A stretch of 64,000 bases of DNA from Acidobacteriota bacterium (GTDB taxonomy: Bacteria; Acidobacteriota; Vicinamibacteria; Vicinamibacterales; UBA2999): positions 62,001 to 126,000 of the forward strand of contig JAKFYH010000022.1 of NCBI GenBank assembly GCA_021730945.1. Direction: 5' to 3'. The notes under the pieces were generated by a model. The model was not told the origin of the DNA and searched no databases. It saw only the letters and a list, made by a program, of their open reading frames with translations. The position numbers were made by a program, and so were the translations under genes. Of this stretch, positions 49,869 to 60,738 are shown one piece after another. Numbering within the stretch: position 1 is the first letter of the stretch; the number at the start of each line of letters is the position of its first letter.

Positions 49869-52800
49869 CTAGAAGATGTGACCAATCCCGAAGTACCAAC
49901 GGCCTCCACGGAGGCTGTTGGGCTCGCGGGACGACAGCGTCGACACCCGCGATCCGGGAATGCCGAAGTCGACGCGCAGCAGGCCAACCGGCGTGTCGAA
50001 CCGCAGGCCCAACCCATATCCCACCTTCAGTGCGCGCCAGTTGAAGGCTTCGCCCTGATCGAGAATGTTGCCGGCATCGACAAACCCGACGCCCTGGAGC
50101 CAGCGATAGATCGGAAAGCGCGCCTCCTGGTTGAGCACCACCAGGGTCTCGCCGCCCGACGGCAAGCCCAGGAAGTCGCGCGGTCCCAGGCTTTCTTCAC
50201 CGTAACCCCGCACGGTGGTGGCCCCACCGGCCCTGAACCGATCCTCGGTGAAGAGATCGTCGCGGCCGAACTTCTTGCCCACTTGCGCGCGCGAGGCGAA
50301 CACCACGCCGCCCGCCGGGACGAACGCATACTGCTGCGCCAGCAGCTTGCGATTGCTCACGTCGGAGCCCAGCCAGGTCGCGGCCTCGTCGAACGACACC
50401 GACGAAAACGTGCCGGTGCGCGGCGCCAGCGGGTCGTTGCGGCGGTCGAACACCAGGGCGGTGTTCAGCCGGGCCACGTTCGACACGAAGTCGATCGGCA
50501 GCGGATCGTTGCCGGGGTCTGGATCGAACGTGTGCGCCCGCTCGAACCGATAGCCGTAGACCACCTGAAAACCACGCGGGCGCCAGCGCTGGTCGAGGCT
50601 GAAGCCCTGCACCGCGTTGATCGCCAGCACATCTTCTCCGCTGTCATCGCGAATACGGTCGCGGGAATAGAAGCCGTAGAGCGTAGAGCGCGCCGCCCAT
50701 CCGAACAGCCGCGAGGTGGCCAGCAACAGCGTCGCGTCCTGGCGATCGTACTGATACATCCCGAAACCGCCCATGGTGAGCGCCCGGCCAAACAGGTTCG
50801 GGTTCTTGATCTCGGCCACGACGCCGGCGTTTCGCGTACTGGTGAACTCGTCGATCTGGGCCTCGCGCGCGCCTTCCAGTTGGACACCGTAGCGGAAAGC
50901 CCACGCCGGAAACTCCTCGACCACGACATTGGCCTTGACCGGCTGCACTCCGTCAACCACCTCGCCCACCGGCACCGGCTGGATGTCGACGAGCCGGAAG
51001 ACGTTGGTGTCGTAGAGCCGCTTGCGGGCGCGGGCCCACTCGTCAAGGTCGACCGGCTTGCCCAACTCGAAGCGCAGAGCCTCGGTCAGTACGCTGCCGC
51101 GCGTGACATCGAGGCCGCTGGTGGCCACGTCCCGGAGCACTTGTTGCGGACCCTCGGCAATCGTGAACACCAGCGTCACGGAGTCGTCCTCCGCCACTTC
51201 GGTCGCCACCTCGATATCAACCGCGTTGAAGCCGTCCTGCCGGTACTGGCGTTCAATGCGCGCCAGTGCCGAGTTGACGTTAACGGCCACGTACGGCGTT
51301 GGCGGTGGCAGGGCGGCGGCCTTCTGCACCACCGGCAGGCGGGCGGCGGGGACGCCGGCAAACTTGAGGGTGGTCACCTGCGCGCGCGGACCCTCGACGA
51401 TGGTGAACGGCAAGACGCCGGTGTCGCCATCAATGGTCAGGCCGCCGCCCTCGACGATGGCCTTGAGGAACCCGGCCTCGTTGTAGGCAGTCAGCAGCAC
51501 CTGCTCGGCGGCGGTGCGATCGAGCCAGGCCTCGACGTCTAACCCGTCGGCCCGAATCTCGCTCATTAACTGGTCACTCGTCAGGAACCGGTTGCCCGAG
51601 AAGCGAACCTCGCGGCCGCTGACCCTGACGCCGGCCGTCACGTCGATTCGCAGGCGCTTGGTCTCGGGGTCCGGCCGGTCGACCGTTCCCACCACCACAC
51701 TGCCCAGCTCCTGGTTGGCGACGAGGTGCGTGCGCACGCGGTGCGTCAGATCTTCGATCAGGAACTGATCGAATGCATTGCGGTGCCAGGCCTCTTCGAG
51801 GTCGCGTTTCACGGCAGCGGGCACGGTGACCCCGGTGATCTCGAGCACCGTGAGCGGTCCGCGATCGACACGAAACTCGATCGCGACCGTATTGGCGACC
51901 TCGTTCGCCGTCCGGCGCGTCCGCACCCGGGCCTCGTAGTAGCCCTGCGCCTTGAAGCGGGCCCGCAGCCGGTCGACGTCGCGCTGCAACACCAGGAAGT
52001 CGAACTCCTTACCCGGCGCGAGCGAAATCTGCCGGCGGACATCGGCCTCAAGCGCTGGGTCGAGGCCGGTGACGGTGATGGCCGCCACCCTGGGCTTCGA
52101 GCGGCGCTCGGCAGGCGGCCGGTCCGAGCCGCCAAAAGTAATCTGGTGCCGAATCCCGAGGCTGGCGGTGGCGTTGTCGCGCGACAGCGCCCGCACTTCG
52201 ATGTTGCGGCTGGGAAAGTAGCTGACGACAAAGGTGGTCTTGCCGCTTTCGCGCAGGTTCTGCGACACCACGATTTCCACCTGATCGCTCAAACGCTTGG
52301 CAAGGGTGAGCCTGGTGGTCGGGTCGGTGCGGTTATTGCCGACGACCGAGACATCGTCACGGAAGTCGCGGTCGGTGAAATCGTTTCGCTCCAGGCGGAA
52401 GGCGTCGAGGCCGATGGCCCGCGCGGTCACGCCGAGCAGGTCGGCCGACAGCAACGTCAGTGCGGTTTCAGTGTTGGCCTGGCCGAGCAAGGTCGCGGCC
52501 AGTTCACCCGGTGTCGACGAGCCGTTTGCCGAGGTGAGGTCGACGGTCGGCCGATCGAGCGGGCCGGTCAGCGTCATCGTCACGGTATCGCCGCCGGTCA
52601 GCGTCGCCTCGGCCACGATGTTGAACTCGGGATGGATGCGGCGCAGATCGGTGAAGGAGATGTCGCCGCGCGTGATGCGGAAGGTGCGTCCGGCCAGGAA
52701 GATCTCGCCGCCCTCGCGCAACGTGACGCGGCCGTCCATGCCAGGGGCAGCAGCGGTACCGACCATTCGCACGCTGACGCCGGCCTCGAGGCGGCCGTAG

Positions 52801-55800
52801 TTATTGTCGACAATCATGTCGTCGCTGGTCGTCACCGTGAGATTCAGGCGAATCTGGTCGAGCAAGCTCCGGTCGGCCCCGGCCGCGACCGGCAGTGTCG
52901 CGCGGCGGGCCAGCGCGGCCAGCGTGATCGTCTCGGTGTAGGCGCTTTGCACGATCCGCAAATCGCCGGTGAGTGACGGCGCTTTCGGGTCGGGTCGATA
53001 GGTGACAAGAGCGTCGACCTCGCTGCGCAGCCCGCGAATCATCTCGATCGCCACGCCCTGCGCCTGGATGCTGACCGCGCCGCCGACGAGGGTCAGGTCG
53101 GCGACCCGCAGAGTGCCATCAAGCGCCAGCGCGCCGCCGTTGGCGAGTCCCCGCACGCCGTCCAGCACCACGCGATCGCCGTCGAGCAGAATCGGTCCGG
53201 ACAAGTCGGAGAGCACCAGCCGTGGTTCCGCCAGTGCGATCTCGGCGTCGGCAAGCATCAACCGCCCGTCGAGCAACGGCCGCGACCAGGTGCCGTCGAT
53301 CCGGGTGTTCAGATCGGCGGTGCCGTCGAAGGCGACCGTGGAGACGAAGGCGGAGAGCACGCGCAAGTCCACCAGGCCCTGGATCGCCAGGTTCAGCGGC
53401 GGATCCTCGGCGGCCACGCCGATCGAGCCGTCGAGGGTGATCGGGTTGTTGGCGACCGACCACAACACGTCGGCCACCGCGACCGTGCCGCGCGCGAACT
53501 CGACACGTGATGGGCGCTGCTGCTCGACCGGAATGCCGGAGAACGTGAACCGCGCGGAATCCATCGTCAGTTCGCCGGTGATCGCCGCCAGATCCAAGGA
53601 CGGCACGTGGGCGCGTGCAGTGGCCGAGAAGCTGCCGACCACACCGCCGCTGGCGACGTCACCGGCGATGCGCGACACCGTCAGCGATTCGCCGGCCAGC
53701 GCGCCGTCGACATTCAGGTCGGTGACGGCTGGCGGGCCATCGCCCCAGGTGAAGGTTCCGTGCTGCAAGGTCAGCTTGGCCTGGCTGCCGGCACGGCTGC
53801 CATCCGATCGGAAGTCGACCGACAGCGCGCCGGTGCCGTCGACGGCCACCGGGACGGCAAACGCGCGGCCCATGCGGATGGCGTCGCGAAAGCTGCCGGT
53901 GAAACGGCCCTGGAAGGCACCGTCGCGGCGGGGGCTCCACTGGCCGGAGGCGGTGAGCAGCCCTTCGCCCATGCGAAGGCTCAATTGCTTCAGCGTCACA
54001 TCGTCGCCCTGCATCGCGATCGTGACCGGCGCATCGAGCGCGATTGGAACGCCGCCCATGGCAGCGTCGAGTTCGGTCAGGTTGACGACCCCGACGTGGC
54101 CGTCCGCATCGGCGAGCCGGCCTGATGCGGTGAGGTGGCCGCTGGCGAAGCCAATCACCTCGCCGTCGACCACGCCGGCCAGTGGCGACAGCCGCGCCAG
54201 TTCCAGGCGATCGAGGACCGCCGTGGCACGATATTCGTAGGGTGAAGCGGTCGCGATGGTGGCGTTCACCAACGCGCCGATCGACGGCAGGCGCGCCGCG
54301 ACGATCGCCTCGCTGCCTTTCAGCTCGGCGGTCAGGTCACCGGCGCCGATCAGGGTCCCAGCCTCGCCGCCACTCAGCGTGAAGTTGACGCGAGCGTTGC
54401 CGTGCGGCGCGGCAACCGTCCCGGCGCCGTCGAACTCCAGGGTGAAGTGGGCCTGGGTGTCGTTGGGCGACAGCACGGTTCCCTGCCAGGCGAGGCGATC
54501 GCCCTTCAGGCTGGCACGGTAGGCGCCGGTCTCCCATTCATAGCGCACGCGGCCGGCCAGCGCGCCCTCGCCCTGCCGAAGTTCGAGGGCGGTGACATCA
54601 ATGGCGTCGGGCGTCACCATGGCCTTCGCCGACGCGCGATCGATCGGCTGCCCGGCCAGAGTCAGGGCCGACCCGGTGATCGTGGTGTCGAGGGTGTAGA
54701 CGTCGAATGTGCCGCCGAGCACCGCGGTGGCCTGCATCGGCCCACGAATTCGCCACGCCTCCGGCACCTCCGCTTCCAGTTCCTCGAACTGGGGCGCGTC
54801 CACGTCGAACAGCCCGGTCCAGGTGCTGTTGACGAGATTGGCGCGCGCCTGTCCGGAGATGGCGGCGGTGCCGCGGCGAATGTCGACGCCGGTGATGTCG
54901 GCCTGGCGGCTGTCGGCCACCACGTGCGCCGACGCGCGCACGCGGCCGACGATCGGCAGGTCGACCGCATCTCCGGTCACCTGCGTATCGACTTCATAGA
55001 ACTGGTAGGAACCGCCGAGGGTCATGGGGAGATCGACCGCGCCATGGACGTCGACGGCGATCTCGGGCACGGGAAAGCCGAGGGTCGCCAGGCTGCCCGC
55101 CGCGGTCGCGACATCGCTCACACCTGCGTGCGCCGGCCCGGTCATGGTCGACAGCAGCGCCGTCTCGCGGTTGATCACGCCGGCCATGCGACCCGCGAAG
55201 ACAACACCGGGAAAGCGGTGATCGTGATCGAACTGGTAGTCGTCGCCGACGATGGTCGCGGTCACGGTGCCGGTCATCGGCACGTGGCCCGGCCGGGTGC
55301 GGCCGGTGGCGCGATTGGTGATCGTGAACCGCCGCGGTTCGCCGAACGAAAACTCGCCATGGCCGGCCAATGCCGCGGCAATGCCCTGTGGACTGAGGTC
55401 GGCCATCTCGATGGCCGTCTGCGCGTCGAGTCCCTGCCAGTCGGCATTGGCGGTGCTCGCGGCGTCGGCCCACGGCACGACGAAGCTGGCCACGATCTCG
55501 CCGCCCGATCGCGGCACGATCGATAGCCGCTCGCCGGAGAACCCCTCACCGGTCGCTCGCACGGGGCCGGCGAGGCGCAGCCCCTGCTCGCGGCCAACCG
55601 TCAGAGTCGTGCTGGCCACCTGCAGTGCGGCAACGAACGTCGCGGCCGGTCCCGTGATCGTGCCCTCAACGGCGACGCTGCCGCTCACGGCTACCGGTGG
55701 GGGCGGCACCCACTGCACGGCGCGCTCGATGTCGACGCCGCCCTTGAGCCGGAGATCAAGAATCGGCGCATCGAGCGCGCGCGCGATCGTGCCGCTGAGC

Positions 55801-56486
55801 ACGGCGTCCAGTTCAGGCGATTGCAGCCTGGTGTCGGCCAGCGAGACGCGTGAGCCGTCAAACGTCATTACCGTCGCGAACGGCGCAATGGTCAAGGTGC
55901 GATCGTTGAGGCGAATCGCGAGCGGGCCGCCGACGGCGAATGCGCCCTCAGCGCCAGACGCGCGTTCTTGCAACGAAGACGTGATGCGCGGTGCCATGAG
56001 GTCCCAATCGCGGACCGCGTCGCCATACTTCACGTCGAGTCCGCGGAGGGTAAGGCTGCCAAGGTCGAGGCGGCGCGGCGTGATCGCGACCGGCTCGTCC
56101 GATCCGCCGGGCAGGTTCAGCGTGTCGCCGGCATCGCGGTAAATATCGACCACGCCGTCATCGATCGCGAGGTGCGTGATGGCGAAGACGCCCCCAAACA
56201 CGGTCCACGGCAGGTGGACCTCGATCTGCCGGGCGACCAGGAACGGCCGCGCCTCGTGGCCGGTTGCCGCGAGACGGACCCCGGTGAGGGTAATGCGCCG
56301 GGTGAGGGCGTTGTAGCCCAGGTTGTCCGCGCGGAGGGACAGATCGTAGCGAGTGACGAAATCACTGGCCCAGGCCAGCGCCCGGCCGCGCACCCACGGA
56401 GTGTGAATGGCCAGAAGTGCCGCCAAACCCGCGGCGGTGGCAATCGCCACCGGTATGACCAGCCCCCGCCGCACCCAAACCCTCAC
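49869..56486 (-). CDS. Natural TamB-TamA fusion: inner-membrane-anchored TamB followed by POTRA domains and an Omp85 barrel
   Basis: 2205 aa in one uninterrupted frame starting at GTG 56486. Residues 7-30 are a membrane anchor (GLVIPVAIATAAGLAALLAI). Residues about 35-1450 are TamB/AsmA-like beta-taco repeats, ending in a TamB (DUF490) C-terminus: REGGEIFLAGRTFRITRGDI, DPTTRLTLAKRLSDQVEIVV. From about 1460 to 1830 come four or five POTRA-like domains (VAAITVTGLDPALEADVRRQ; VSGREVRFSGNRFLTSDQL; VLRDVATSGLDVTRGSVL). From about 1850 to 2205 is a surface-antigen barrel with AGGATTVRGYGEES and a C-terminal YFGIGHIF. TamA and TamB are normally separate proteins that together move lipids or proteins between the membranes. 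Here both are one chain. Confidence 0.9.
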   Translation of the reverse strand: MRVWVRRGLVIPVAIATAAGLAALLAIHTPWVRGRALAWASDFVTRYDLSLRADNLGYNALTRRITLTGVRLAATGHEARPFLVARQIEVHLPWTVFGGVFAITHLAIDDGVVDIYRDAGDTLNLPGGSDEPVAITPRRLDLGSLTLRGLDVKYGDAVRDWDLMAPRITSSLQERASGAEGAFAVGGPLAIRLNDRTLTIAPFATVMTFDGSRVSLADTRLQSPELDAVLSGTIARALDAPILDLRLKGGVDIERAVQWVPPPPVAVSGSVAVEGTITGPAATFVAALQVASTTLTVGREQGLRLAGPVRATGEGFSGERLSIVPRSGGEIVASFVVPWADAASTANADWQGLDAQTAIEMADLSPQGIAAALAGHGEFSFGEPRRFTITNRATGRTRPGHVPMTGTVTATIVGDDYQFDHDHRFPGVVFAGRMAGVINRETALLSTMTGPAHAGVSDVATAAGSLATLGFPVPEIAVDVHGAVDLPMTLGGSYQFYEVDTQVTGDAVDLPIVGRVRASAHVVADSRQADITGVDIRRGTAAISGQARANLVNSTWTGLFDVDAPQFEELEAEVPEAWRIRGPMQATAVLGGTFDVYTLDTTITGSALTLAGQPIDRASAKAMVTPDAIDVTALELRQGEGALAGRVRYEWETGAYRASLKGDRLAWQGTVLSPNDTQAHFTLEFDGAGTVAAPHGNARVNFTLSGGEAGTLIGAGDLTAELKGSEAIVAARLPSIGALVNATIATASPYEYRATAVLDRLELARLSPLAGVVDGEVIGFASGHLTASGRLADADGHVGVVNLTELDAAMGGVPIALDAPVTIAMQGDDVTLKQLSLRMGEGLLTASGQWSPRRDGAFQGRFTGSFRDAIRMGRAFAVPVAVDGTGALSVDFRSDGSRAGSQAKLTLQHGTFTWGDGPPAVTDLNVDGALAGESLTVSRIAGDVASGGVVGSFSATARAHVPSLDLAAITGELTMDSARFTFSGIPVEQQRPSRVEFARGTVAVADVLWSVANNPITLDGSIGVAAEDPPLNLAIQGLVDLRVLSAFVSTVAFDGTADLNTRIDGTWSRPLLDGRLMLADAEIALAEPRLVLSDLSGPILLDGDRVVLDGVRGLANGGALALDGTLRVADLTLVGGAVSIQAQGVAIEMIRGLRSEVDALVTYRPDPKAPSLTGDLRIVQSAYTETITLAALARRATLPVAAGADRSLLDQIRLNLTVTTSDDMIVDNNYGRLEAGVSVRMVGTAAAPGMDGRVTLREGGEIFLAGRTFRITRGDISFTDLRRIHPEFNIVAEATLTGGDTVTMTLTGPLDRPTVDLTSANGSSTPGELAATLLGQANTETALTLLSADLLGVTARAIGLDAFRLERNDFTDRDFRDDVSVVGNNRTDPTTRLTLAKRLSDQVEIVVSQNLRESGKTTFVVSYFPSRNIEVRALSRDNATASLGIRHQITFGGSDRPPAERRSKPRVAAITVTGLDPALEADVRRQISLAPGKEFDFLVLQRDVDRLRARFKAQGYYEARVRTRRTANEVANTVAIEFRVDRGPLTVLEITGVTVPAAVKRDLEEAWHRNAFDQFLIEDLTHRVRTHLVANQELGSVVVGTVDRPDPETKRLRIDVTAGVRVSGREVRFSGNRFLTSDQLMSEIRADGLDVEAWLDRTAAEQVLLTAYNEAGFLKAIVEGGGLTIDGDTGVLPFTIVEGPRAQVTTLKFAGVPAARLPVVQKAAALPPPTPYVAVNVNSALARIERQYRQDGFNAVDIEVATEVAEDDSVTLVFTIAEGPQQVLRDVATSGLDVTRGSVLTEALRFELGKPVDLDEWARARKRLYDTNVFRLVDIQPVPVGEVVDGVQPVKANVVVEEFPAWAFRYGVQLEGAREAQIDEFTSTRNAGVVAEIKNPNLFGRALTMGGFGMYQYDRQDATLLLATSRLFGWAARSTLYGFYSRDRIRDDSGEDVLAINAVQGFSLDQRWRPRGFQVVYGYRFERAHTFDPDPGNDPLPIDFVSNVARLNTALVFDRRNDPLAPRTGTFSSVSFDEAATWLGSDVSNRKLLAQQYAFVPAGGVVFASRAQVGKKFGRDDLFTEDRFRAGGATTVRGYGEESLGPRDFLGLPSGGETLVVLNQEARFPIYRWLQGVGFVDAGNILDQGEAFNWRALKVGYGLGLRFDTPVGLLRVDFGIPGSRVSTLSSREPNSLRGGRWYFGIGHIF

Positions 56487-56493
56487 CCTATCG

Positions 56494-56499
56494 ATTCTA
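56494..56499 (-). promoter_or_regulatory. -10-like box of the TamB-TamA gene
   Basis: Minus-strand TAGAAT ends 7 nt before GTG 56486, again without a ribosome-binding site. The 56-bp gap is shared with the divergent peroxiredoxin gene. Confidence 0.45.
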
Positions 56500-56542
56500 G
56501 TCCTGCAATTGAGGTACCATTCGGCCGTTGGAGGATCAACTC

Positions 56543-57088
56543 ATGCGTATGAAGTCATGGCTTACGGTCGGCCTCAGCGCCGCCTTGAGCCTGGTGACGA
56601 GCAGCGCGGCCATGGCCCAGGCACCGGCACTCAAGGTCGGTGACATGGCCCCCGCGTTTTCGGCACCCGGATCGGATGGTAAGACCCACACGCTTGCGGA
56701 ATCGAAAGGCAAGCAGGCCGTAGTATTGGCGTGGTTTCCCAAGGCCTTTACCGGTGGTTGAACGGCCGAATGCAAGTCGCTCCGTGAGAGCGGCGATCTG
56801 ATTCGGCAGTACAACGTCGCGTATTACATGATCAGCACGGACACGCTGGAGGACAACACCAAGTTCGCCCAGATGCACGAGGCGGACTATCCGATCCTCA
56901 GCGACGTGACCAAGGAGATCGGCACCAAGTACGGCGTCCTCGGCGCAACCGGCATGGCCCGGCGCTGGACGTTCTACATTGCTCCGGACGGAAAGATCCT
57001 CCACATCGACGACGCGGTGAAAGCCGGGTCGTCGGGGCCGGACATGGTCGCCAAGCTCGCTGAGCTGAAGATCGCGAAGAAGAAGTAG
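56543..57088 (+). CDS. Predicted selenocysteine-containing peroxiredoxin (TGA read through at residue 73)
   Basis: 181 aa if TGA at 56759-56761 is read as selenocysteine. The start ATG 56543 has GGAGG 8 nt upstream. Signal peptide: WLTVGLSAALSLVTSSAAMA. The thioredoxin-fold AhpC/TSA domain begins LKVGDMAPAFSAPGSDGK. The sequence around the TGA is FPKAFTGG-U-TAECKSLRE, where peroxiredoxins have the peroxidatic Cys (compare TPGCT). Without a frame shift the remaining 108 codons encode the rest of the domain: YYMISTDTLEDNTKFAQM, YPILSDVTKEIGTKYGVLG, RRWTFYIAPDGKILHIDD. Cys77 is a candidate resolving residue. The product would reduce peroxides in the periplasm. A hairpin right after the TGA fits a bacterial SECIS. 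No selenium-incorporation gene is in the window. Confidence 0.85.
56764..56795 (+). other. Candidate bacterial SECIS hairpin
   Basis: Immediately after the TGA, the upper stem CGCTC (56778-56782) pairs with GAG-a-GCG (56786-56792; one bulged A) around a CGT loop. A possible lower stem is GGCCG (56764-56768) with CGGC (56791-56794), though it competes with the upper stem. The apical loop is about 21 nt from the TGA, within the range used by bacterial SelB. The loop lacks the E. coli GGUC, which is not conserved across phyla. Confidence 0.55.
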
Positions 57089-57100
57089 TTCCAACCGTCA

Positions 57101-57136
57101 CCGGCCTGGCGCGTCATTACGGCGCGTCCAGGCCGG
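57101..57136 (+). terminator. Hairpin after the peroxiredoxin gene
   Basis: CCGGCCTGG (57101-57109) and CCAGGCCGG (57128-57136) form a perfect 9-bp stem 12 bp after the stop. No T tract follows, so it may be a Rho-dependent or attenuating structure. Confidence 0.5.
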
Positions 57137-57195
57137 CTCTCCTCCGCCCGGCTTCCCTCCCCAACGATCCCGTGCACTGCTGATTACTTAATGGC

Positions 57196-57225
57196 TTGAC
57201 AGTACGGGCCGGGCACCCGTAATGT
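57196..57225 (+). promoter_or_regulatory. Sigma-70-type promoter of the TonB receptor with an operator-like dyad in the spacer
   Basis: TTGACA (57196-57201), 18-bp spacer, TAATGT (57220-57225). Inside the spacer TACGGG (57203-57208) and CCCGTA (57216-57221) form a perfect dyad, placed where a repressor would block polymerase. The start codon is 54 bp downstream of the -10 box. Confidence 0.65.
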
Positions 57226-57279
57226 CCGCGACTGTAATCAAGCCGGTCCTTCAATCCGTTGAACGGCAGGGAGACGACT

Positions 57280-60129
57280 ATGCGTCGATTTGCAGCGTGC
57301 GCAGCAGTTCTCTGTGTGGCGGTGTTTGTCAGCGCGCGGCCGGCCCACGCCCAGGCCTCGCTGTCCGGCGTTGTGCGCGACGGTTCGGGCGCGGTGCTGC
57401 CGGGCGTCACGGTTGAGGCGTCCAGTCCCGTGTTGATCGAGAAATCGCGTACCGTCGTCACCGATGGCGCCGGTCAATTCAAGATCGTCGACCTCAGCCC
57501 CGGCCGCTACCAGGTGGTGTTTACGCTGACCGGGTTCAAGACGGCACGGCAGGAGAACATCGACTTGTCGGGCAACTTTGCCGCCCAGGTCAACGCCGCG
57601 ATGGAGGTCGGGGAGATCTCGGAGATGGTGACGGTCACCTCGGCAACGCCGGCGGTGGACGTGATCAACAACCAAACCAGCTTTGTCGCCGGTCGTGACG
57701 TGCTCGACAGCATCCCCACCGCCAATCGCAACACGCCGTCGCGGGCCTTGTTGATCCCCGGCACCACCGTGGTGCCATTCGTGCTCGGCCAGTACAGCAT
57801 GAGCGTGCATGGCTCGGCGACGTCGGACATGGTGATCGCAATTGACGGCCTGCGGGTGAACAACCTGTGCGGCAGCGGCCAGTACAGCGGCTTCTACATG
57901 AACGATGCCAGCGTGCAGGAAGTGACCTACACGACCGGCGCCGAGTCGGCCGAGATGGCGGCCGGCGGCCTGCGCATCAACAGCATTCCCCGCGACGGCG
58001 GCAACACGTTCTCCGGCACCTTCCTCGCCTACGGTGCGGGCAGCCAGTTCCAGGCCGACAACCGCACCGATGCAGTCAAGACTTTGATTGGCCAGCCGCC
58101 CGGCATCGCTTATGACTACCAGTTCAATCCGTCGTTCGGCGGTCCGCTGAAGAAGGACAAGCTCTGGTTCTACCTGACCTACAAGTACGCCGACAACAAG
58201 ACCTACGTCGCCAGCTCCACGTTTGCCGATGGCAGCCGTGCGTTCCGGCAGGCCATGGGCAACTACAGCGGTGTCGGCCGCATTACCTGGGCGGCGACCA
58301 GCCGCGACAAGTTCCGCATCTACATCGAGAAGCAGTTCAACGGCGAGGAGTACAACGGCTTCAACACGCTGGCGACCACGACGCCGGAGGCCTCGACCGA
58401 CGCGTTCGGCCGCGGGTGGGTGCCGCAGGTGAAATGGACCCAGGCGACTTCCAACCGCCTGATGCTCGAGGCCGGCATCTCGTACTACGACCAGCCCTAC
58501 GAGCAGAACTATCGGCCGACGGTCGGCAAGACCGACCTGCCGCGGCTTGAACAGACCACGGGCCGCCTGTCGGTGGCGGCCGGCAACACGATTCCGCCGT
58601 ACACCAGTTGGACCAAGGACTACAGCACGATGGCGTCGGCCAGCTACGTCACCGGCACGCACGCGTTCAAAACCGGAATGACCTACAGCTGGGGCACCAA
58701 CTCGCGGACGTTCTCGTCCAACGCCCAGATCAACACGCTGGTGTTCAACGGCGGCAATCCGATTGCCGTCGCGGTGTCGAACGGCCCGACCACGGCGCAG
58801 CAGAAGGTCAAGCGCGACCTCGGTGTGTTCGCGCAGGACACCTGGACGATGGATCGGCTGACGCTGAATCTGGGCGCCCGCTTCGACCAGTTCAATGCCG
58901 AAGTGCCGGCGCAGTCGGCGCCGGCCTCAACCTGGATCGCGGCCCGCAACTTCCCCGCCATTCCCAACGTGCCGAACTGGAGCGACTGGTCGGTGCGGGC
59001 CGCCGCGGCCTACGACCTGTTCGGCACCGGCAAGACCGCGGTGAAGGTGAGTGCCGGCAAGTACGTGGCGAACCAGGCCGCGGGTTACGCCGCGACATTC
59101 AACGGCATGACCTACGCCACGCAAACGCGCGGCTGGTTCGACGCCGACGGCAACCGCTCCATCCTCGACGCGGCCGGCAATCTGCAGCCCGGCGAAGTGA
59201 TCGGCGGCACGGCGAACTTCGGCGGGATCACGGCACGGCCTGACCCAAACCTGCTGCGCGGCTACAACTGGGAGTACAGCGCTTCAGTGCAGCACGAGGT
59301 GGCGCCGCGGATTGCCATCACCGCCGGCTACTATCGCCGCCAGTTCTACAACCTGCAGGTGACCGACAACCAGAACCTGTCGCGCGATGACTGGAGCCCG
59401 TTGACCGTCACGACGCCTACCGATCCCAGGCTGCCGACCTCCGGCCAACCGATTACGATGTACTCGCTGAATCCGGCCCGTGTCGGCACCGCGGTCGATA
59501 ATCTCTACACCTACTCGGACGTCAACCGGACCATCTACAACGGCCTGGAAGTCAGCGCGAACCTGCGGCGCGACAAATTCTTGATGTTCGGCGGCGTCAC
59601 CCTGGACCGCCGCGCCTCGACTGAGTGTGACGGCGCCAACACCAGCACCGGCAATACCGCCCGCGACAACCCGAACAGCCTGCGGTTCTGCGACAACATC
59701 CCGCCCTATCGGGCCACCTACAAGATGTCGGCCGCCTATCAACTGCCGTGGGAATTCCAGGTCAGCGGCACCTATCTCGCCATCCCGGGCGCGAGCATCA
59801 ACGCCAACTACACGGTGACGGCGGCCCTTGCCGGCCGTCCGCTCGTCGGTTCCCAGGCCGGCACGCCGACCATTGCCGTCAACTTGATCGAACCCAACAC
59901 GGTGTTTCTCGACACCAGGAAGCAGCTCGACCTTCGTCTGGGCCGAACCTTCCGCACTGGCCGCTACCGCACGCAGGGCTTCGTGGATGTGTTCAACGTG
60001 CTGAACGCCGGCACGGTGATCCGGGTGACCGAGACCTACGGCGCCAACCCGGCCACCAACGCCTGGAAGAACCCGCAAGCGATCATGGATGGCCGCTTCG
60101 TGCGGTTCGGGATTCAGATGTCGTTCTAG
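57280..60129 (+). CDS. TonB-dependent receptor-like protein with carboxypeptidase-regulatory-like N-terminus
   Basis: 949 aa from ATG 57280, which follows GGGAG; a TTG seven codons upstream is less likely. Signal peptide ends SARPAHAQ. Residues about 25-105 are a CarboxypepD_reg-like domain (ASLSGVVRDGSGAVLPGVTV; FKIVDLSPGRYQVVFTLTG). A plug domain follows (about 110-240) with YTTGAESAEMAAGGLRIN, then a 22-strand-type barrel ending in GRFVRFGIQMSF with the C-terminal Phe. This Oar-like layout is abundant in Acidobacteriota and transports or exports unknown substrates. No substrate-binding lipoprotein or transporter is adjacent. The upstream promoter has an operator-like dyad. Confidence 0.92.
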   Translation: MRRFAACAAVLCVAVFVSARPAHAQASLSGVVRDGSGAVLPGVTVEASSPVLIEKSRTVVTDGAGQFKIVDLSPGRYQVVFTLTGFKTARQENIDLSGNFAAQVNAAMEVGEISEMVTVTSATPAVDVINNQTSFVAGRDVLDSIPTANRNTPSRALLIPGTTVVPFVLGQYSMSVHGSATSDMVIAIDGLRVNNLCGSGQYSGFYMNDASVQEVTYTTGAESAEMAAGGLRINSIPRDGGNTFSGTFLAYGAGSQFQADNRTDAVKTLIGQPPGIAYDYQFNPSFGGPLKKDKLWFYLTYKYADNKTYVASSTFADGSRAFRQAMGNYSGVGRITWAATSRDKFRIYIEKQFNGEEYNGFNTLATTTPEASTDAFGRGWVPQVKWTQATSNRLMLEAGISYYDQPYEQNYRPTVGKTDLPRLEQTTGRLSVAAGNTIPPYTSWTKDYSTMASASYVTGTHAFKTGMTYSWGTNSRTFSSNAQINTLVFNGGNPIAVAVSNGPTTAQQKVKRDLGVFAQDTWTMDRLTLNLGARFDQFNAEVPAQSAPASTWIAARNFPAIPNVPNWSDWSVRAAAAYDLFGTGKTAVKVSAGKYVANQAAGYAATFNGMTYATQTRGWFDADGNRSILDAAGNLQPGEVIGGTANFGGITARPDPNLLRGYNWEYSASVQHEVAPRIAITAGYYRRQFYNLQVTDNQNLSRDDWSPLTVTTPTDPRLPTSGQPITMYSLNPARVGTAVDNLYTYSDVNRTIYNGLEVSANLRRDKFLMFGGVTLDRRASTECDGANTSTGNTARDNPNSLRFCDNIPPYRATYKMSAAYQLPWEFQVSGTYLAIPGASINANYTVTAALAGRPLVGSQAGTPTIAVNLIEPNTVFLDTRKQLDLRLGRTFRTGRYRTQGFVDVFNVLNAGTVIRVTETYGANPATNAWKNPQAIMDGRFVRFGIQMSF

Positions 60130-60143
60130 CGATCACGAGCGTC

Positions 60144-60166
60144 ACAGGAGGTGAAGAGGTCAGGAG
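60144..60166. repeat. CAGGAGGT element, copy at 60144
   Basis: A 23-bp element beginning ACAGGAGGTGAAGAG; 21 of 23 bases match the copy at 63207-63229. It sits between convergent stops and supplies the TGA of the DUF1697 gene (60160-60162). Confidence 0.6.
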
Positions 60167-60699
60167 AGTCCCCCGAGCTTGAGGACAGTGTTCCAGTTGC
60201 GGGCGGTGCCGGTGGTGCCGAGCCTCTTTTCGATCATCGCGATGGTGAGCCGGGATCTGCCGATTCCATCGGGATAGACGATGTAGGCGTGCCGCCCCTT
60301 CACCTTGACGACTTCGCGGCCCTTGATGGCTTGCTGGAGCGCCGTTACCGCGGCTGGAGACGGCGCGTCCTTCAGGCACATCAACACCGTGTGGCCGGGA
60401 TCGATTTTCGCCTCTTTCGGGAACGGGTTGTCGGCGATGGCCTGCTGCCACTCTGGCGCGGTGCGGACCAGAAAGGCGGTCTGCAAACCGAGCTGCTGTG
60501 CGGCGCTCGCCTCGAGCAGCTTCTCAAGGGACCCGGGCGTCGCACGCGCGGTGGTCTCGAACACGACATTCCCGCTCTGCAGCAACGTCTGAGGGTTCTT
60601 CATGCCCAGGCCGGCGAGCAAGTCGCGCAGGCCGGCCATTGACACCTTGTTATGGGAGCCGAGGTTGATGGCACGCAGCAGGCCGATGAAGGTCGCCAT
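60160..60699 (-). CDS. DUF1697 family protein
   Basis: 179 aa from ATG 60699; the frame opens 12 codons earlier at GTG 60735. Family hallmarks: MATFIGLLRAINLGSHNKV, QTLLQSGNVVFE, GLQTAFLVRTAPEW and the C-terminal TARNWNTVLKL. DUF1697 proteins are small, cytoplasmic and uncharacterised. It lies 39 bp downstream of the topoisomerase A gene on the same strand. Its stop codon lies inside a repeat element. Confidence 0.88.
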   Translation of the reverse strand: MATFIGLLRAINLGSHNKVSMAGLRDLLAGLGMKNPQTLLQSGNVVFETTARATPGSLEKLLEASAAQQLGLQTAFLVRTAPEWQQAIADNPFPKEAKIDPGHTVLMCLKDAPSPAAVTALQQAIKGREVVKVKGRHAYIVYPDGIGRSRLTIAMIEKRLGTTGTARNWNTVLKLGGLS

Positions 60700-60738
60700 G
60701 TCACTTATCGGAGCGGCCGCGCCTGACTCCGCCACTCA

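Follow-up and report, generated by a model that had tools for sequence, protein, structure and literature searches.

Bacterial peroxiredoxins with selenocysteine (Sec) in a TxxU active site constitute an established selenoprotein family, belonging to PF00578 and COG1225 (Bcp) (PMC9312934, PMC13188914). Twelve such proteins were reported in 2006 (PMC1794560), and 91 proteins in 78 organisms were known by 2016 (PMC5029168). The first-pass annotation of the DNA studied here was therefore correct in that Sec-peroxiredoxins are known in bacteria, while its "a few bacteria" was too low. For Acidobacteria, the 2006 survey lists four selenoproteins in three families (PMC1794560). PrxU of Eubacterium (Peptoclostridium) acidaminophilum (NF040737) also possesses Sec at the peroxidatic position. 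The Cys enzymes to be compared are PrxQ/Bcp, represented by Corynebacterium glutamicum PrxQ (PMC5811025), Sulfolobus Bcp1 (3drn) and Mycobacterium tuberculosis BcpB (5epf), and the AhpE of M. tuberculosis (1xvw). The resolving Cys of PrxQ is situated five residues after the peroxidatic Cys (PMC5811025); AhpE is a 1-Cys enzyme with a PxAF(T/S)xxC-like active-site signature (PMC5302317).

The gene described below lies in a window of 64,000 nucleotides, the whole stretch of acidobacterial DNA that was analysed, and adds a new member, or lineage, to the known Sec-peroxiredoxin family. In common with the described TxxU proteins it has the AhpC/TSA domain, the TxxU active site, the wider PxxxTxxU motif and a bacterial SECIS element following the UGA; unlike them, the Acidobacteriota lineage has a signal-peptide-like N-terminus and a U-x3-C arrangement. 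The limited set of literature searched contained no account of a Sec-peroxiredoxin that is exported or spread throughout the Acidobacteriota, and the phylum-wide spread, the probable export and the U-x3-C spacing appear to be undescribed. We assign a probability of about 0.93 to the explanation as a whole, namely that this is a functional Sec-peroxiredoxin gene with SECIS-guided insertion of Sec73, and that its probably exported product would operate a Sec73–Cys77 cycle with an extracytoplasmic reductant.

The gene and its in-frame TGA

The features of the locus, numbered by position in the window, are:

56530..56534, forward strand: likely ribosome-binding site GGAGG, read in the sequence 8 nt upstream of the ATG
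56543..57088, forward strand: Sec-containing peroxiredoxin gene, 181 amino acids with TGA read as Sec (PF00578, 3.5e-28), stop codon TAG at 57086-57088
56543..56617, forward strand: predicted signal peptide MRMKSWLTVGLSAALSLVTSSAAMA with an AxA-type end, judged from hydropathy and by eye, with low model confidence for residues 1-20
56759..56761, forward strand: TGA codon, predicted Sec73 and peroxidatic residue, with U or C at this column in all homologues and Sec machinery present
56771..56773, forward strand: Cys77 (TGC), predicted resolving residue (U-x3-C), conserved in homologues
56776..56794, forward strand: bacterial SECIS hairpin, stem 56776-56782 / 56788-56794 (7 bp), loop CGUGA at 56783-56787
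56963..56965, forward strand: Arg141, invariant in alignments, aligned with the Bcp/PrxQ active-site Arg (xRxTF; R of 3drn)

The TGA shares its reading frame with the ATG at 56543 and the stop codon at 57086-57088. The PF00578 (AhpC/TSA) match spans residues 32-154 (98.5 bits against a cut-off of 26), thus flanking the TGA on both sides, and the codon corresponds to U73 of the peroxidatic motif PxxxTxx(C/U), here P66-KAF-T70-GG-U73, in the local sequence PxxxTGG-U-TAEC. This is exactly the peroxidatic Cys position, as first proposed. The frame is indeed open around the codon, which is preceded by 72 codons and followed by 108, instead of the 108 originally given for each side.

Standard gene calling with translation table 11 recovers only a downstream fragment of 86 amino acids, as a pseudogene created by a nonsense mutation or by an assembly error might. 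Against such an origin, which we regard as exceedingly improbable, the frame is open, homologue comparison reveals purifying selection on both flanks of the TGA, and the same TGA occurs in dozens of independently assembled genomes, in homologues of 50-93% identity. The last observation excludes a read error or a chance nonsense mutation, and the conserved TGA column led us to reject the pseudogene. The initial argument that a nonsense mutation would strike this codon only by chance is strengthened by the presence of the TGA-bearing peroxiredoxin (family 1) in 60 of 99 related genomes, and by the selection acting on the hairpin described below. The gene at 56543-57088 is very likely that of a selenoprotein whose TGA encodes Sec at the active site; sequence comparison establishes the gene, its Sec codon, the selenium machinery and the SECIS element, and the first-pass annotation is borne out both in what it observed and in how it read it.

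Selenium machinery of the genome

The first-pass annotation had made its prediction depend on selA, selB, selD and tRNA-Sec, and all four are present. The host genome (4.73 Mb, 67 contigs of which the window is contig 13, estimated completeness 100%) encodes tRNA-Sec (anticodon tca), SelA (432.9 bits) and SelB with its winged-helix domain. Its SelD gene contains one in-frame TGA (G000:C34:15882-16808, L009), and so does a formate dehydrogenase gene (G000:C27:20796-22670). The machinery is thus complete and used beyond the peroxiredoxin, and the genome likely encodes at least three selenoproteins (peroxiredoxin, SelD and formate dehydrogenase).

The SECIS hairpin

Bacterial SECIS elements are characterized as possessing a loop of 3-9 nt, a stem of 4-16 bp, a G in the first two loop positions, a spacing of 16-37 nt and an MFE of -7.5 or lower (PMC13188914). 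The hairpin predicted at selenocysteine-insertion distance conforms to all of these, with a spacing of 21 nt after the TGA, a loop of 5 nt and a stem-loop energy of -9.6 kcal/mol. The same rules are satisfied by 76 of 87 Sec genes and by a single one of 52 Cys paralogues; among synonymous-codon shuffles of the Sec genes the proportion is 6.3 +/- 2.4% (sd). Eleven of the 87 fail the strict rules as coded, and the seven failing genes inspected possess a similar stem that is interrupted or falls below the energy cut-off.

In the stem, 93.4% of cells are paired over 54 distinct Sec sequences, and four of the seven pairs have changed on both sides, a level of covariation reached in none of 500 shuffles. 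The Arg codon which contributes GU to the loop is CGT, a rare Arg codon, in 58 of 60 genes, compared with a background of 19% of the Arg codons in the same genes. The hairpin is shifted in one family-level group (e.g. L058, L066, L068, L074), where the loop reads CGUGAnnC. These comparisons indicate that the hairpin is specific to TGA genes and under selection; as the genes share ancestry and do not represent independent events, the figures are descriptive.

Folding energy is weakly unusual relative to dinucleotide or synonymous shuffles (z -1.94 for the window gene), and the synonymous null separates Sec (mean z -0.98) from Cys genes (-0.66) weakly; energy alone is thus not good evidence, and we relied in its place on the published rules and on covariation. 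An Rfam scan of 56400-57300 returned no match, as expected, because bacterial SECIS elements are too variable for Rfam.

A rival reading is that the TGA is decoded without Sec, for example by Trp suppression or generic read-through, or that it is a programmed stop that gives two proteins. We consider such decoding very unlikely here, since tRNA-Sec, SelA, SelB and SelD are all encoded, the hairpin accompanies TGA genes specifically, and the residue at this column in non-Sec homologues is Cys, never Trp or Ser. Insertion of Sec is the reading that we retain.

Sec and Cys forms among relatives

The TGA occupies the identical column in every Sec homologue extracted and is kept across genus, family, order and phylum. 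TGC or TGT is found there in a paralogous clade, in line with the first expectation that homologues would carry Cys. Among named relatives, those closest to the gene come from Acidobacteriota MAGs. Sampling across the phylum and scanning public genomes located the Sec form in several classes of Acidobacteriota as well as in Verrucomicrobiota. The Cys form occurs in Acidobacteriota, in Planctomycetota and in Beta- and Gammaproteobacteria; a few homologue records under other phylum names were taken as mislabelled.

Among the 99 relatives, 57 have both the family-1 Sec-peroxiredoxin and SelB, three the peroxiredoxin only, 17 SelB only and 22 neither (Fisher p = 1e-8). Genomes with SelB and only a Cys-peroxiredoxin are to be expected if proteins other than this one use Sec. 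Three TGA-bearing genomes have no detectable SelB and two no detectable SelA; draft incompleteness is the likely cause, G042 and G073 being 93-97% complete drafts. Six genomes (G016, G018, G020, G021, G030 and G033) have adjacent selA-selB genes with high SelA scores and only a Cys-form peroxiredoxin; their selA-selB pair looks like a different selAB lineage.

The phylogenetic tree, whose bootstrap had not settled, separates a large Cys group of 43 rows from a second group that is mostly Sec (83 rows, with 6 of Cys). It requires about five changes between Sec and Cys, compared with 41 when labels are shuffled; the homologues share ancestry, and counts among them are not independent events. We incline, by a small margin over even odds, to a distinct and long-lived extracytoplasmic Sec-peroxiredoxin lineage with U-x3-C in Acidobacteriota and Verrucomicrobiota, existing beside a parallel Cys lineage. 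It would represent an envelope selenol peroxidase of soil, groundwater and lake bacteria, missed as gene callers stop at TGA.

The Acidobacteriota, a large and mostly uncultured phylum, use Sec for a probable envelope peroxidase in addition to formate dehydrogenase and SelD. Sec-peroxiredoxin is widespread in the phylum and has probably been read as truncated. Two testable questions are raised, namely by what means a selenol stays reduced once outside the cytoplasm, and why some genomes retain Sec and Cys paralogues side by side. Tandem Cys-form and Sec-form genes adjoin in L024 (824-1351, 1501-2043) and L037 (791-1342, 1432-1980), and tandem Sec-Sec copies are found in L143 and L148.

Protein fold, active site and family placement

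AlphaFold models the protein with confidence as a peroxiredoxin (mean pLDDT 90.6), with residues 1-20 disordered and of low confidence. The nearest solved structures by Foldseek are Bcp1 (3drn), BcpB (5epf), AhpE (1xvw) and PrxQ (3ixr). The protein resembles PrxQ/Bcp in its fold, its active-site motif, the Gly preceding the peroxidatic residue and a second Cys in the same helix, and the monomeric atypical 2-Cys cycle of those enzymes serves as a model. It differs in having Sec in place of the peroxidatic Cys, a second Cys that is one residue closer (+4, against +5), and a predicted signal peptide. The PKAFTGGU sequence fits the AhpE-type PxAF(T/S)xxC-like site, and the conserved Cys77 distinguishes the protein from that 1-Cys enzyme.

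In a redundant set, all 64 Cys sequences and 104 of the 111 Sec sequences have the Cys at +4, the seven exceptions being a second Sec family. Because the PrxQ resolving Cys is at +5, the role of Cys77 at +4 as the residue resolving Sec73 is one that we infer.

Scores against the NCBIfam models for Bcp and PrxQ (NF006960, 73.6 bits, cut-off 140; NF053650, 63.1, cut-off 260) and for PrxU (NF040737; 44.9, cut-off 270) are far below the cut-offs, and membership in the PrxQ, Bcp and PrxU models was rejected; the PrxU score places the window protein outside that family. The protein is covered by no selenoprotein-specific model and passes the cut-off of none of the curated NCBIfam models, so that it is likely annotated as a fragment or pseudogene. 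By analogy the protein would work like PrxQ, and we do not file it as a PrxQ/Bcp member.

A weak similarity to ResA (NF002854, 2.1e-9), together with the probable export, would fit a selenoprotein of another kind, a ResA/TlpA-like thiol-disulfide or selenol-disulfide oxidoreductase. This we judge unlikely, since the best matches are to Bcp/PrxQ (NF006960, 1.5e-20, and by Foldseek), the PxxxTxxU motif and the invariant downstream Arg are those of peroxiredoxins, and a WCxxC motif is absent. The protein is most likely an atypical "2-Cys" peroxidase, PrxQ/Bcp-like and extracytoplasmic, in which peroxide would oxidise Sec73 and the conserved Cys77 would resolve it.

A second, distant Sec-peroxiredoxin family of the order (FPAAFSPG-U-TTEMSRYR; L078-L082, L101 and L102) has no Cys at +4 and its own hairpin TGTCCCGGTACCGGGACA, with compensatory variants TGTCTCGGTATCGAGACA. 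Its SPGUTTEM site is 1-Sec-like, as AhpE is 1-Cys.

N-terminus, probable export and proposed mechanism

A hydrophobic N-terminus is found in 78 of 83 Sec and all 52 Cys homologues; K or R before the hydrophobic stretch and an AxA-like end are present in 64 of the 83 and 51 of the 52, respectively. The window protein itself displays, judged by eye, the hydropathy and AxA pattern of a putative Sec-type signal peptide. From the N-terminus of the protein and of most homologues, which resembles a signal peptide, a periplasmic enzyme is suggested, and it is on this part of the protein that export is predicated. The genome encodes one DsbD_TM protein, which may carry electrons out to the peroxiredoxin.

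We infer the following mechanism, in which the crossing of the membrane, the cycle between Sec and Cys and the identity of the reductant are all putative. The hairpin after the UGA would direct tRNA-Sec and SelB to insert Sec at residue 73, and the product, a peroxiredoxin of the Bcp/PrxQ-AhpE type, would probably cross the inner membrane. There Sec73 would attack a hydroperoxide, giving a selenenic acid, and Cys77, which shares its helix and follows four residues later, would resolve it as a selenenylsulfide. A thioredoxin-like protein outside the cytoplasm, itself supplied by a membrane carrier of the DsbD/CcdA type, might then reduce this bond.

Genomic neighbourhood

No conserved operon partner was found across 110 loci, the search for plasmid homologues gave no match, and a scan for promoters and terminators found nothing. 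Divergent from the peroxiredoxin gene lies an ORF of 2205 amino acids (49869-56486, reverse strand) with TamB (PF04357, residues 1115-1440), POTRA and an Omp85 barrel (PF01103, 1897-2205), a TamB-TamA-like fusion in one polypeptide. Such a divergent TamB/Omp85 neighbour occurs at 25 of the 110 loci, all of them Sec loci, and the adjacency is thus apparently local synteny. A DUF1697 protein (PF08002, 1.2e-35) is encoded at 60160-60735 on the reverse strand.
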